15,208 nt of DNA from Candidatus Dormiibacterota bacterium (GTDB lineage Bacteria; Chloroflexota; Dormibacteria; UBA8260): assembly GCA_955652455.1 (NCBI GenBank), contig CATPBU010000041.1:1-15208 (forward strand). Reading direction: 5' to 3'. The translations under genes and the position numbers were made by a program. Positions 3,245 to 7,137 of this stretch are shown in pieces (position 1 is the first letter of the stretch; each line of letters starts with the position of its first letter). Below the pieces are notes generated by a model. That model was not told the DNA's origin, did no database searches, and saw nothing but the letters and a program-made list of their open reading frames with translations.

Positions 3245-4543
3245 TCAGCTCACCCCCAACTCCTCGAGCCTGCGATAGACGCTGCGGCGCTGCGGGGCTA
3301 CGGGCTCGCCGACGGGATGACGCCCGGTAACCGCGTCGAGGGTCTTCAGGCCGTGGCCCGTGATGTACGCGACGACGGTCTCGCCGCCCGTCCATCGGCC
3401 CTGGCGAGCCAGCTTGCGCAGCACCGCCACGGTCACCCCGCCGGCGGTCTCGGTGAAGATCCCCTCGGTGCGTGCGAGCAGGTCGATCCCCTCAAGGATC
3501 TCGTCCTCGGACACGCTGGCAACGACGCCGCCACTGCGGCGGGCGATGCGCAGCACGTCGGCGCCGTCGGACGGGTTGCCGATGGCGATGGAGCGCGCGA
3601 TGGTGTCGGGCCGCACCGGCTGGACGACGTCGCTGCCGCGCTCGAAAGCGTCGGCGACCGGTGAGCATCCGAACGCCTGGGCCCCGGTGAACCTCGGCAA
3701 CCGCCGGTCATCGACGAGCCCGAGATTGATCAGTTCGGCGGCCGCCTTGCGGTGCTTGACGAACTGACAGCCAGACGCAACTGGGATGACAATCTCGTCC
3801 GGGAGTTGCCAGCCGAGCTGCTCCGCGGTCTCGAAGGTGAGCGTCTTGCTCCCCTCACTGTAGTAGGGGCGAAGATTGATGTTGCAGAAACCCCAATCGA
3901 GATCGTCGGCGAGCTCGGCACAGAGCCGGTTGACGTCATCGTAGTTGCCCGCGATCGGGATAACGTTGGCGCCGAAGACCGAGGTCGCCGCGATCTTCTG
4001 CGGCTCGAGGTCGGCGGGGATGAACACCACGGCCCGGATGCCGGCTCGTGCCGCGTACGCAGCCACCGAGTTGGCGAGGTTGCCGGTTGACGCGCAGGCG
4101 ATGGTGTGGAACCCGTTCTGCAGCGCCCAGTTGAGCGCGACAGCGACCACCCGGTCCTTGAACGAGTTGGTGGGGTTGACGGTGTCATTCTTGAGATGAA
4201 GGCTGCGCAGCCCGAGTTCGCTCCCAAGGTTGCGGGCGTGCACCAGCGGTGTGAAGCCTTCGCCGAGAGTGACCGGCTCGCGTTGCCCCACGGGCAGAAG
4301 GTCGCGATACCGCCACAGGGTCGGTGGACCGGTCTCGATGCGTGCGCGCGAGATACGCTCCGCGACCCTGTCGTAATCGTACGCCACCTCGAGCGGACCG
4401 AAGCAGAGGTCGCACAGATGTGTCGCCGTGGCGGGACGCTGGTGTCCGCACGCCCGGCAGCGCAGGCCGGTCACGTGGCTCGCCTCCGCAGTCGCGAGAG
4501 CGGTGGGCGGCCCGACGTGGTCAGCGGCATCGATCGTGGACAT
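3245..4543 (-). CDS. thrC: Threonine synthase (PLP enzyme)
   Basis: A 432-residue fold-type-II PLP enzyme. The family turns O-phosphohomoserine into threonine and phosphate. An N-terminal zinc ribbon has CxxC pairs at C29/C32 and C44/C47 (CDLCFGPLEVAYDYD). Other features are LGEGFTPLVHA (93-103), the PLP-lysine motif NPTNSFKDR with Lys129, the phosphate-binding ASTGNLANS (151-159) and VASGCQFVKHRKA further on. The length and zinc-ribbon form match threonine synthases of Actinobacteria and Chloroflexi. ATG 4543 is preceded by GGGAGG with a 7-nt all-T spacer. These bases are also the 3' arm and U-run of a terminator, so expression must depend on the upstream attenuator. No other threonine-pathway gene is in the window. 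A different reaction on phosphohomoserine cannot be excluded. Confidence 0.9.
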   Translation of the reverse strand: MSTIDAADHVGPPTALATAEASHVTGLRCRACGHQRPATATHLCDLCFGPLEVAYDYDRVAERISRARIETGPPTLWRYRDLLPVGQREPVTLGEGFTPLVHARNLGSELGLRSLHLKNDTVNPTNSFKDRVVAVALNWALQNGFHTIACASTGNLANSVAAYAARAGIRAVVFIPADLEPQKIAATSVFGANVIPIAGNYDDVNRLCAELADDLDWGFCNINLRPYYSEGSKTLTFETAEQLGWQLPDEIVIPVASGCQFVKHRKAAAELINLGLVDDRRLPRFTGAQAFGCSPVADAFERGSDVVQPVRPDTIARSIAIGNPSDGADVLRIARRSGGVVASVSEDEILEGIDLLARTEGIFTETAGGVTVAVLRKLARQGRWTGGETVVAYITGHGLKTLDAVTGRHPVGEPVAPQRRSVYRRLEELGVS

Positions 4544-4575
4544 AAAAAAACCTCCCGGGTGGTTCCGGGAGGTCT
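4544..4575 (-). terminator. Attenuator terminator abutting the thrC start
   Basis: On the minus strand ACCTCCCGG (4573-4565), loop AACCAC (4564-4559) and CCGGGAGGT (4558-4550) form a perfect 9-bp stem, extendable by a G-U and an A-U pair to 4575. Seven T residues (4550-4544) run directly into the thrC ATG at 4543. GGGAGG in the 3' arm is also the thrC ribosome-binding site, so the folded hairpin would both stop transcription and hide the start. Confidence 0.85.
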
Positions 4576-4617
4576 CCTGACGGAGGGCGCGATGCGCCGC
4601 TACGTTCGGAAACCTCC
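4568..4617 (-). promoter_or_regulatory. Antiterminator of the thrC leader
   Basis: GGAGGTTTCC (4617-4608), which spans the Gly-Gly-Phe codons of the leader peptide, can pair over 10 consecutive positions (one G-U) with GGAGACCTCC (4577-4568). The second arm includes most of the 5' arm of the terminator, so the two structures exclude each other. Confidence 0.7.
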
Positions 4618-4627
4618 GCGGCGCATC
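4591..4627 (-). promoter_or_regulatory. Upstream hairpin of the thrC attenuator
   Basis: GATGCGCCGC (4627-4618) and GCGGCGCATC (4600-4591) are perfect 10-base reverse complements around a 17-nt loop. The 5' arm covers part of the Met triplet and both Arg codons of the leader peptide. The 3' arm starts in its TAG stop codon. The loop contains the 5' arm of the antiterminator, so this hairpin is placed to serve as a pause or anti-antiterminator element. Confidence 0.7.
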
Positions 4628-4665
4628 ATCATCGAGCCGGTGCCGACCACCGCTTTCACATGCAT
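4600..4665 (-). CDS. thrC leader peptide with Met triplet
   Basis: A 21-residue ORF from ATG 4665 to TAG 4602-4600, ending in SMMMRRGGFRT. The ATG lies 7 nt behind a TAGCAT -10 box and has no Shine-Dalgarno sequence, so it is probably translated from a leaderless mRNA. Codons 12-14 are three consecutive ATGs (4632-4624). The following Arg-Arg codons form one hairpin arm and the Gly-Gly-Phe codons form the antiterminator arm. Thr codons occur only at positions 9 and 21, one each, so this is not a classical Thr/Ile-rich thr leader. It is a regulatory ORF. Its product probably has no role of its own. I know of no named equivalent. Confidence 0.65.
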   Translation of the reverse strand: MHVKAVVGTGSMMMRRGGFRT

Positions 4666-4672
4666 CGCGGCG

Positions 4673-4678
4673 ATGCTA
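4673..4678 (-). promoter_or_regulatory. -10 box of the thrC leader transcript
   Basis: TAGCAT on the minus strand (4678-4673) ends 7 nt before the leader-peptide ATG, which places the transcription start at or next to the ATG. No good -35 box is visible upstream, where the sequence is the end of the helicase gene and a short spacer. Confidence 0.5.
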
Positions 4679-4704
4679 CCAGACCCGGACGCCGATGCCG
4701 CACG

Positions 4705-7137
4705 TCACACCCGGCGGATCAGGTCACGCTCCATCGCCTCCCGCGCCTGCCGCACCCTGGCCAGCAAGGGGTGGTCGCGCAGCGCCTGCTCCATCTGGCG
4801 CAGCATCGAGTAGAGATTCTTCATCGCCTTGACGACGTCCCCGATGTCATTGGCTGCGGGTGTCTCGATATCGACGAGAGGGGTGCCCGACGCCCACTGG
4901 TGGGCGGCATTGATGTAGTCGAGCGAAAGCGGGCGCAATGTCTGGAGGCCGTGCTCGCGCTCGAGGGCGACCAGGCGGTGCAGCGAGCCTCGCAGCCGCC
5001 GGTACGCGACCTCGACCCGCGCGGTGGGGAAGTGGCGACGCGACGGCTGCGGCCGGTCGCGTCCCCGATCCTCGGCGACCAGGCTGACCAGCGCGGCGGC
5101 GAGTTCGGCGGGTTCGAGCGCCTCGAGGTGTCCGGAAACGATGGCGTCAGCGACCAGCAGCGCATTCTCGCCGAACAGCGATGCCGCCAGCAGCCCGAGC
5201 TGGTTGGGGGCATCTGCCTCGAGAAAGCCGGCGTCGTGGAGGACGTTGCGCAGGGCGTGGAACTCACGCCGGTAGCGATGGCGCGCCCACTCGAGCTCGG
5301 CCTCGCCGCCGTCGAGCGTCTCCTCGAGCCCGCGCATCTCGAACCTGTGGGCGCGATGCTCTCCCAGGAACGGACAGCTGCGGCAGGGTGAGTTGTTGAG
5401 GCGCTGCTGTTTCTCGCGCAGCTCACGCCGCATCGCCTCGAAGCGTTGGCCCGGGTCAGCGCCCCGCCCGCTCGGCCGACCGCGCCGGGAATCGCGCCAG
5501 TGCTCGCGCTTGGCGCGGCGAACCGACGTCTGGAGCTCCTCGACCGAGTCGGTGAGGGCGAGGTGCGTCGTCAGCGTGCGCTCGGTGCAGGCAACCTTGG
5601 GGTGGCGGAACACCCGGCGGCGCAGGTCGGCAAGTTGTTCCTCGAGGTTCTTGCGCTTCTCGCTCCAGTGATCGGCGCGCTGCACGTTCTGATACTGGCC
5701 GAACGACTTGTCGAGCAGCTCCTCGGCTCGCTCCACCGTGCGTGTGCGGAGCAGGCTCAGCACCATCGTGTACGTGGGCGCGAACTTGCTGTCGACGCTC
5801 ATCTCGCCACCGATGGCGGCGTCGTAGATGTCACGGACGTCGACGTCCGGTTCCTTGAGGATGACGCCGTGGCCGACGGTGTCGATGCCGCGCCGCCCGG
5901 CCCGCCCCATCAGCTGGGTCAGCTCGCCCGCGGTAAGGGAGTGGAACCCGGTGCCGTCGAACTTGGTAAAGGACGACACCACGCACGCGCGCGCAGGCAT
6001 GTTGAGCCCCAGCGACAGCGTCTCAGTGGCGAACACCACCTTGACCAGCCCTTCGATGAACAGCCGCTCAACCGCCTCCTTCGCCGACGGCAGCATCCCC
6101 GCGTGGTGCATGGCGACCCCGTTGCGGAGAGCGTGGACGTCGATGGCCTGGCGGAAGACGCGGCGTTCGTCGCCGTCCTCGATGCGCTGCATCAACCGGC
6201 CGTAGCGGGCGTCGATCGCCTCCTTCTCGCGATCGCCGGTGAGGTCCAGACCGTGCACCACGCAGCGACTCAGCGCCTCCGCGCAGCCGCGTCGCGAGAA
6301 GATGAAATAGATGGCGGGGAGCATGGCGCGCCCGCGCAACTCCTCGATGACCCGGAAGAGGTCATTGTCAGGAGCGCGGCGCATGTAGCGGAACCGAGCC
6401 TCATGCATCGACTCGTTCTGAGCCATCTCGAGGGTACGGCGCGCGACCCTGCCGCGCGCGTCGAACAGCGGCTCCAGCCGGTTGCTGATGGCCAGCCACA
6501 TCTCCAGCGGCACCGGCCGTTCCGTCCGCACCACCGTGCCGATGTCGCCGCGCAGGCCGCACATCCAAGCTGCCACCTCCTCGACGTTGCTGATCGTTGC
6601 CGAGAGCCCGATCAGGCGGACGTGGGCGGGGGCCTCAATGATGATCTCCTCCCACACCGTGCCGCGAGGATGGTCGTCGATGTAATGCACCTCGTCGAGC
6701 ACGACGTCGGAGACGAGGTCGAGCCGGGCCGGCTCGTCGTAGAGGACGTTGCGCAGGATCTCGGTGGTCATGACCACCACGGTTGCGCCGTCGTTGATGG
6801 TGTGCTCGCCGGTGACCAGCCCGATGTTGGCAGCCCCGTAGCGTTGCGAGAGGTCGTGGAACTTCTGATTGCTGAGTGCCTTCAGGGGGGAGGTGTAGAT
6901 GACTCGCGCGTGCGCACGTCGCAGCTCCGGCGGCGCCAGAAGGCAACGCCACATCGGGTATTCGGCGACGAGCGTCTTGCCGCTGCTGGTCGGCGCGGCG
7001 ACGAGGACCCCTCTCGACCGCTCGAGCTTGTCGATCGCTTCACGTTGGAAGTGGTCGAGGGCGAACGGAAGCGAGGCCTCGAAGGCGCCGATCGCAGCCT
7101 CGATCTCATCGTCCGCCGCCTGCTGAGCTTGGGCCAT
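4705..7137 (-). CDS. helY: Ski2/Mtr4-like helicase of HelY type
   Basis: An 810-residue superfamily-2 RNA/DNA helicase. In order: FQREAI (30-35, Q-motif-like); Walker A APTSSGKT (48-55); motif Ia TSPLKALSNQ (82-91); DEVH box (148-151); SAT (179-181); YFIFSRRGC (277-285); HHAGMLP (344-350); FATETLSLGLNMPA (369-382); motif VI QLMGRAGRRG (408-417). A charged coiled-coil-like stretch (about 490-580) leads to CRSCPFLGEHRAH (585-597), a Cys/His segment typical of HelY proteins, and a C-terminal helical DSHCT-like region. Mycobacterial HelY is the nearest named group. Relatives unwind structured RNA for decay or processing. ATG 7137 has no Shine-Dalgarno sequence, but GATGAT lies 6 nt upstream. The gene lies 39 nt behind the DUF503 gene, so an operon is also possible. 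Confidence 0.9.
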   Translation of the reverse strand: MAQAQQAADDEIEAAIGAFEASLPFALDHFQREAIDKLERSRGVLVAAPTSSGKTLVAEYPMWRCLLAPPELRRAHARVIYTSPLKALSNQKFHDLSQRYGAANIGLVTGEHTINDGATVVVMTTEILRNVLYDEPARLDLVSDVVLDEVHYIDDHPRGTVWEEIIIEAPAHVRLIGLSATISNVEEVAAWMCGLRGDIGTVVRTERPVPLEMWLAISNRLEPLFDARGRVARRTLEMAQNESMHEARFRYMRRAPDNDLFRVIEELRGRAMLPAIYFIFSRRGCAEALSRCVVHGLDLTGDREKEAIDARYGRLMQRIEDGDERRVFRQAIDVHALRNGVAMHHAGMLPSAKEAVERLFIEGLVKVVFATETLSLGLNMPARACVVSSFTKFDGTGFHSLTAGELTQLMGRAGRRGIDTVGHGVILKEPDVDVRDIYDAAIGGEMSVDSKFAPTYTMVLSLLRTRTVERAEELLDKSFGQYQNVQRADHWSEKRKNLEEQLADLRRRVFRHPKVACTERTLTTHLALTDSVEELQTSVRRAKREHWRDSRRGRPSGRGADPGQRFEAMRRELREKQQRLNNSPCRSCPFLGEHRAHRFEMRGLEETLDGGEAELEWARHRYRREFHALRNVLHDAGFLEADAPNQLGLLAASLFGENALLVADAIVSGHLEALEPAELAAALVSLVAEDRGRDRPQPSRRHFPTARVEVAYRRLRGSLHRLVALEREHGLQTLRPLSLDYINAAHQWASGTPLVDIETPAANDIGDVVKAMKNLYSMLRQMEQALRDHPLLARVRQAREAMERDLIRRV

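Follow-up and report, generated by a model that had tools for sequence, protein, structure and literature searches.

The window analyzed here (the whole stretch of 15,208 nucleotides) contains a gene annotated as threonine synthase with an attenuator-like leader directly upstream, which raises the question of which amino acid this leader senses and which pathway its gene serves. Attenuators of amino acid operons of the trp, his, thr and ilv type have codons for the product of the operon in a leader open reading frame (ORF), mutually exclusive antiterminator and terminator helices, and a U tract. From its sequence, pairing, codon positions and gene clade, we regard it as likely that the leader is a ribosome-mediated attenuator with charged methionyl-tRNA as its signal, and that the gene under its control encodes a MetM-type homocysteine synthase.

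Organization of the leader

An earlier sequence-only reading had placed a -10 box, a 21-residue leader ORF, three stems and a run of seven T residues upstream of the gene, and each of these was found at its claimed place on the minus strand (Table 1). The antiterminator and the terminator are mutually exclusive as it had stated, although the bases they share are 4574-4568 and not 4572-4568. It had also proposed to fold the leader and to look for covariation in relatives. The fold of 4540-4690 beats 200 of 200 dinucleotide shuffles (z -3.35), and the comparison with relatives is given below.

Table 1. Features of the leader and the genes on either side of it.
Feature	Position	Strand	Remarks
Helicase gene	stop at 4705		just upstream of leader
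-10 box TAGCAT	4678-4673	minus	ends 7 nt before leader start codon
Leader ORF, 21 codons	4665-4600	minus	MHVKAVVGTGSMMMRRGGFRT, then stop
Sensor codons ATG ATG ATG	4632-4624	minus	A-site positions -15, -12, -9 before segment 2
Segment 1, protector hairpin 5' arm	4627-4618	minus	pairs with 4600-4591
Segment 2, antiterminator outer 5' arm	4617-4608	minus	GGAGGTTTCC
Antiterminator inner helix	4605-4580	minus	10 more pairs inward; spans leader stop codon
Protector hairpin 3' arm	4600-4591	minus	10 perfect pairs with segment 1
Segment 3, antiterminator outer 3' arm	4577-4568	minus	GGAGACCTCC; 10 pairs with segment 2, one G-U
Terminator 5' arm	4574-4565	minus	pairs with 4558-4549
Terminator 3' arm	4558-4549	minus	holds Shine-Dalgarno-like GGGAGG, 4556-4551
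T7 tract	4550-4544	minus	touches ATG of the gene at 4543
Controlled gene, annotated threonine synthase	4543-3245	minus	assigned to MetM-type clade

No good -35 hexamer was found 15-19 bp before the -10 box. A scan of the window with Rfam at gathering score gave no family over the leader, the single match being a tRNA at 559-631. Neither the SAM riboswitch (RF00162, gathering score) nor the T-box (RF00230) gave a match in the window.

Distribution of the leader in Dormibacteria

Among the matches listed, the relatives of the window protein that carry an organism name are mostly from Dormibacteraeota or Chloroflexi, with one from Aeolococcus and one from Angelobacter, which makes the window Dormibacteria-like. 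As class sample we used 110 genomes of the class of G002, which was taken as Dormibacteria. The gene or a paralogue is found at E ≤ 1e-40 in 106 of them, and 88 have at least two gene matches, a few of which are pieces of one gene.

Thirteen further loci have the same anatomy upstream of a close relative of the window gene. A sequence model (R1) built from these and the window (14 leaders) gave 14 strong matches before the same gene in the 110 class genomes (E 1.7e-33 to 2.6e-22), of which 13 are the loci that built the model and one (G010:C74, L191) was added, its gene being cut by the contig end. The metM leader set used below thus holds 15 leaders (14 class loci and the window). In one locus (L156 of G006) the controlled gene is in two pieces in different frames.

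The codons for M[M/I]M, the GGF and the position of the stop are kept in all 15 leaders. A -10 box lies 7-9 nt before the ATG or GTG in 14/14 leaders, for which the motif itself was a search criterion, and 8 nt before it in L191. Because of this short distance, the leader mRNA is probably leaderless, its transcription starting on the start codon of the leader ORF or right beside it.

The pattern GGAGGTTTTTTTATG occurs in exactly one copy in each of 37 of the 110 class genomes and is absent from a reversed control. A joint model run against 400 evenly drawn genomes of the phylum matched 26 at E ≤ 0.001, 20 of which are members of the class. The six weak matches outside the class look unrelated; by eye they resemble ordinary terminators, chance matches or, before a trpE-like gene, a T-box. 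Such a T-box-like leader before a trpE-like gene was noted by eye in L315 and L316, from other genomes of the phylum. Seven weak matches of the model within the class were examined as well; one is a third scaffold (G008:C16, see below), and the others (G033:C31, G031:C125, G028:C105, G062:C131, G085:C122 and G053:C218) are probably chance matches. The attenuator is thus genuine, and it has been conserved in a part of the class.

Sister scaffolds before cimA and an acetolactate synthase gene

R1 also gave 29 further class matches (2e-8 to 1.6e-4), one of them in G008. A set of 22 distinct segments was compiled from the weaker R1 matches and the matches to the GGAGGTTTTTTTATG pattern, with L210 left out. 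All 22 precede a gene that starts with a DTTLRDGAQG signature, and the one such gene tested (L225) encodes a citramalate synthase (TIGR00977, 617 bits). The leaders of this cimA set are rich in Ile, e.g. MRNRRAIAIEIIRGGPPT before the stop; L224 and L228 have no listed leader start. Most cimA leaders end with GGPPT, where the two prolines ahead of the stop might delay release and so keep the ribosome on segment 2. In 14 genomes without the cimA attenuator (23 searched), cimA directly follows an apparent leuB (by eye).

The third copy of the scaffold, in G008:C16 (L266:72-180), has the leader MCSTRIRGIVGPGGSRT, ended by a stop and followed by an 85-aa ORF, which gave no significant family match, and then by an acetolactate synthase gene (TIGR00118, 628 bits).

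The scaffolds of the metM and cimA sets are likely homologous, although the GGAGG-CCTCC-GGAGG skeleton they share could have had an independent double origin.

Covariation and pairing

Covariation was assessed on an alignment (A3) of 33 of the 37 sequences (12 metM, L191 and 20 cimA), in which L095, L097, L213 and L217 are omitted as near-copies. RNAalifold, given alignment A2 in full, settled on the terminator together with small helices, and pairs were therefore counted on the named structures. The outer helix of the antiterminator has 87.3% of its cells paired and 22 doubly changed, against shuffled means of 84.1% and 9.1, and the terminator has 94.2% paired and 10 doubly changed, against 90.0% and 2.9. 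None of these four values was reached by any of 500 shuffles, in a test that kinship among the sequences inflates. When the partners are slid by 1-3 columns the pairing falls to ≤ 67.5%.

Other counts are less distinctive. Doubly changed pairs number 4 in the antiterminator and 3 in the terminator, which is unexceptional, as 80 and 89 of the 500 shuffles are as high, and the terminator slid by -1 has 4 such pairs, one above the true structure. The antiterminator has no more further pair types than the shuffles (399/500 as high). All 33 sequences fold with an outer helix of 9-10 pairs and an inner helix of 7-11 pairs. Both the antiterminator and the terminator helices covary in relatives, and the claim that the pairings are unlikely by chance has been borne out, with conservation and covariation as the decisive evidence.

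The protector stem behaves differently from set to set. In the metM leaders it has 6-11 bp and keeps its place, with shuffle p values from 0 to 0.62. It is strong in the window (matched by 0 of 300 shuffles), whereas the cimA leaders show no evident stem of this kind. Since it is weak in some metM leaders and not evident before cimA, it looks accessory.

A tract of six to eight T follows directly after the G+C-rich stem in 33/33 aligned sequences. This bears on the alternative that control is chiefly translational, with the hairpin hiding the Shine-Dalgarno sequence and termination playing a minor part. The terminator 3' arm does double as the Shine-Dalgarno sequence of the gene, its GGGAGG lying 7 nt from the ATG, just as such control would have it, but translational control alone has no need of a T tract that every aligned sequence has kept, and we find this alternative improbable.

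Identity of the controlled gene

The window protein scores 302.6 bits against PRK08197 (cut-off 303) and 284 against TIGR00260 (cut-off 167.1), and among its six relatives of solved structure (best 212.9 bits) five are threonine synthases. Many class genomes have a second paralogue that is about 40% identical. In a tree of 94 rows, 14 second paralogues are split from the 80 others with an SH-aLRT of 100, and the window is among the 80. The MetM of Streptomyces albulus itself is outside this tree, in which it is represented by Streptomyces loci with a SAM riboswitch.

The second ThrC was checked in ten class loci, of which G009 is the sole attenuator genome (its two paralogues are 38% identical). 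It is flanked by hom before and thrB after in five of the ten, called by motif in G016, G027, G003 and G009, while in G103 hom was called by motif and thrB by eye. In G002 the locus is short and has hom alone, and in G035, G039, G041 and G052 neither a hom nor a thrB motif was found alongside. G035, a distant class member, has a gene of the window's clade that adjoins an apparent thrB, which counts against the MetM reading but fits a phosphohomoserine-using enzyme whether this is MetM-type or an ordinary ThrC. The metM-type gene, the thrB-like gene and the second ThrC paralogue of G035 all lie within 8 kb (L163).

MetM of S. albulus is marked by a SAM riboswitch upstream and by the carrier gene metO, according to the accessible part of PMC12172450. 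In an Rfam scan, a SAM riboswitch was found upstream of the clade gene in 30/74 loci (15/16, 0/20, 6/20 and 9/18 in the subsets scanned). Within the class, one clade (L141, L142, L143, L145, L147 and L149) has a SAM riboswitch in place of the attenuator upstream of its metM-type gene. The Streptomyces lividans operon that has a SAM riboswitch in front and is assigned to threonine biosynthesis in the accessible part of PMC8079986 fits the MetM reading too.

As for the carrier, a MoaD-like gene ending in GG directly follows the clade gene in 46/150 loci, counted after six duplicate loci and weak rows were dropped. No MoaD-like gene is adjacent in the 12 attenuator loci checked, which speaks against the MetM reading, though an unlinked one is present in 14/14 attenuator genomes, in 13 of them at E ≤ 1.4e-28. 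G087 has a NIL-domain gene after the MoaD-like gene. By eye, the unlinked MetO-like carrier gene precedes an apparent mnmA-type tRNA thiolation gene in L288, L289, L279 and L233.

We also searched for metA and metX. No metA was found in 26 genomes, with 8/14 control genomes positive. Full-length metX was found in none of the 26, of which 24 give pieces of about 40-105 of 351 positions at E ≤ 0.001, and this negative is weak, as the cut-off was passed by 0/14 control genomes too. Both attenuator genomes tested encode a protein above the cystathionine gamma-synthase cut-off, so another route to homocysteine is possible. Caution also comes from a cyanobacterial MetM-like ThrC, which is reported to have threonine synthase and deaminase activity and for which the full MetM role is doubted (PMC12172450, accessible part). 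With these points in mind, the controlled gene probably encodes a MetM-type homocysteine synthase of the methionine pathway and not an ordinary thrC product.

Sensor codons

Codon positions were counted from the first G of GGAGG in the 15 metM and 22 cimA leaders. The metM leaders have Met at -15 in 15/15, Met at -9 in 15/15, and Met (7/15) or Ile (8/15) at -12, which gives 37 Met, 8 Ile and no Thr among the 45 decision-point codons. The cimA leaders have Ile at -15 in 21/22 and at -9 in 22/22. The leader of G008 has Ile at -21 and -12, Val at -9 and Gly at -15. A stop codon is found at +15 in 37/37 leaders, placed so that a terminating ribosome would cover segment 2, and Thr is found at +12 in 36/37.

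Compared in this way, the residues that differ between the two leader sets follow the pathway and those that are shared follow the scaffold. The leader codons appear to name the product, since Met stands before metM and Ile before cimA at the same two positions. Ile at -12 in 8/15 metM leaders leaves room for an isoleucine input as well. Conservation, covariation and sensor codons at the geometric decision point together give good support to the translation-coupled attenuation put forward in the sequence-only reading.

That reading had implied a classical attenuator of the thr type, in which a shortage of threonine would stall the leader ribosome and switch on a threonine synthase. The annotation of the gene and its score above the TIGR00260 cut-off speak for this, as do a Thr codon at +12 in 14/15 metM leaders and another at -18 in 9/15. 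But the cimA leaders have the +12 Thr just as invariably (22/22), and hence it belongs to the scaffold, the decision-point codons are never Thr (0/45), and it is the second ThrC, in a clade apart from that of the controlled gene, that is found beside hom and thrB in half of the ten class loci, G009 being the sole attenuator genome among them. On the codon tally and the tree we dropped the thr-type reading, which is distinctly unlikely.

A leader peptide that arrests the ribosome on sensing a metabolite such as SAM, and not through codon starvation, could account for the C-terminal GG-x-x-T before the stop that is common to nearly all leaders of both sets. The pairing of the antiterminator dictates the GG, however, and where the two sets part (Met and Ile) the residues follow the pathway, which makes arrest of this kind very unlikely. 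That the terminator belongs to the helicase gene, which ends just upstream at 4705, and that the remainder is chance is hardly credible, even with no good -35 hexamer for the leader, given that two helices covary, that 15 leaders have their codons fixed and that the scaffold recurs before cimA and before an ilv gene.

Proposed mechanism

Under the methionine attenuator that we favor, a ribosome supplied with ample methionine would pass the Met codons and reach the stop, where it would cover segment 2 and allow the terminator to form. The terminator would also hide the Shine-Dalgarno sequence of the gene, so that transcription and translation would be shut together. Once the ribosome has been released, the first stem probably reinforces termination in the lineage to which the window belongs. 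When methionine is short, the ribosome is predicted to stall when one of the Met codons (-15, -12 or -9) occupies its A site. This would leave segment 2 free, and the long antiterminator would form before the last arm of the terminator is made, so that metM would be transcribed with its Shine-Dalgarno sequence free.

We modeled the ribosome as a mask on a leader transcribed just as far as the end of segment 3. With the A site at -15 the mean antiterminator probability was 1.00; it fell to 0.93 at -12, to 0.57 at -9, and to 0 from -6 onward, including the stop. These zeros arise because segment 2 is masked, and the separation is thus partly by construction. Without a ribosome the mask model predicts the antiterminator. 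When the full leader was folded at equilibrium with the ribosome masked, no clean switch resulted, as the terminator often wins even with the ribosome at the Met codons, and a switch would therefore have to be kinetic.

The start of the leader poses a further question, namely how a leader initiated with methionine can report a shortage of methionine, which should slow initiation of the leader too. Since the leader starts with methionine, the attenuator would work only if the initiator Met-tRNA stays charged while charged elongator Met-tRNA is low. If this is true, the element offers a natural readout of the way in which scarce methionine is split between initiator and elongator tRNAs. More broadly, we incline, if only by a little, to the view that one scaffold, in this analysis found only in Dormibacteria, has been re-aimed by its sensor codons (Ile for cimA, Ile/Val for ilv, Met for metM), with the Met attenuator serving the metM lineage as the SAM riboswitch serves this gene elsewhere and dependent on an initiator Met-tRNA that stays charged.

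Comparison with known systems

The leader resembles the attenuators of the trp, his, thr and ilv type in its product codons, exclusive helices, U tract and a stop placed over segment 2. Unlike them, it has a methionine signal, a probably leaderless ORF, a Shine-Dalgarno sequence inside the terminator and a protector stem that is weak or missing in relatives, and its host belongs to the Dormibacteria.

A parallel in its codons is the metL leader before metNIQ in S. lividans, for which a leaderless ORF with Met codons has been proposed (PMC8079986, accessible part). Both have such an ORF with a methionine gene downstream, but the Met codons of metL are scattered, its gene is a transporter gene and, in the same part of that paper, no typical terminator was found. 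The SAM (S-box) riboswitch RF00162 controls the same gene clade, including the six loci of the same class, but senses SAM through an aptamer. The ilvBNC attenuator of Corynebacterium (accessible parts of PMC11857589 and PMC10272879) is likewise a leader attenuation system of an amino acid operon in a high-GC bacterium, with a different amino acid, gene and phylum. The MetM of S. albulus is, in the accessible part of PMC12172450, a threonine-synthase-like homocysteine synthase that uses O-phosphohomoserine, as we propose here, but the window gene is under the control of Met codons and lies away from the carrier gene. The accessible parts of PMC2965389 and PMC1262725 describe no Met leader.

Leader-peptide attenuation is already known, as is the proposal of a Met leader without a clear terminator before metNIQ of S. 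lividans. Among the literature matches listed, nothing was found on this leader or on attenuation in Dormibacteria. Judged against these matches, four things appear to be new: a complete Met-codon attenuator with a terminator, its position before a metM-type gene that in relatives is under a SAM riboswitch, a single scaffold serving both Ile and Met, and Dormibacteria as host. Methionine and Dormibacteria would thereby be added to ribosome-mediated attenuation with a complete terminator, and the same scaffold would read different amino acids before different genes. The leader codons would also provide an independent clue to a role in methionine synthesis for a large family that is annotated as threonine synthase.

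A different Met-containing leader was seen by eye upstream of the metM-type gene in four loci of a neighboring clade (L109-L112), ending in GMRMRRGGLTAPHA before the stop in L109. It sits over a GGGGCGG/CCGCCCC hairpin without a T tract and is perhaps a version that acts at the level of translation.
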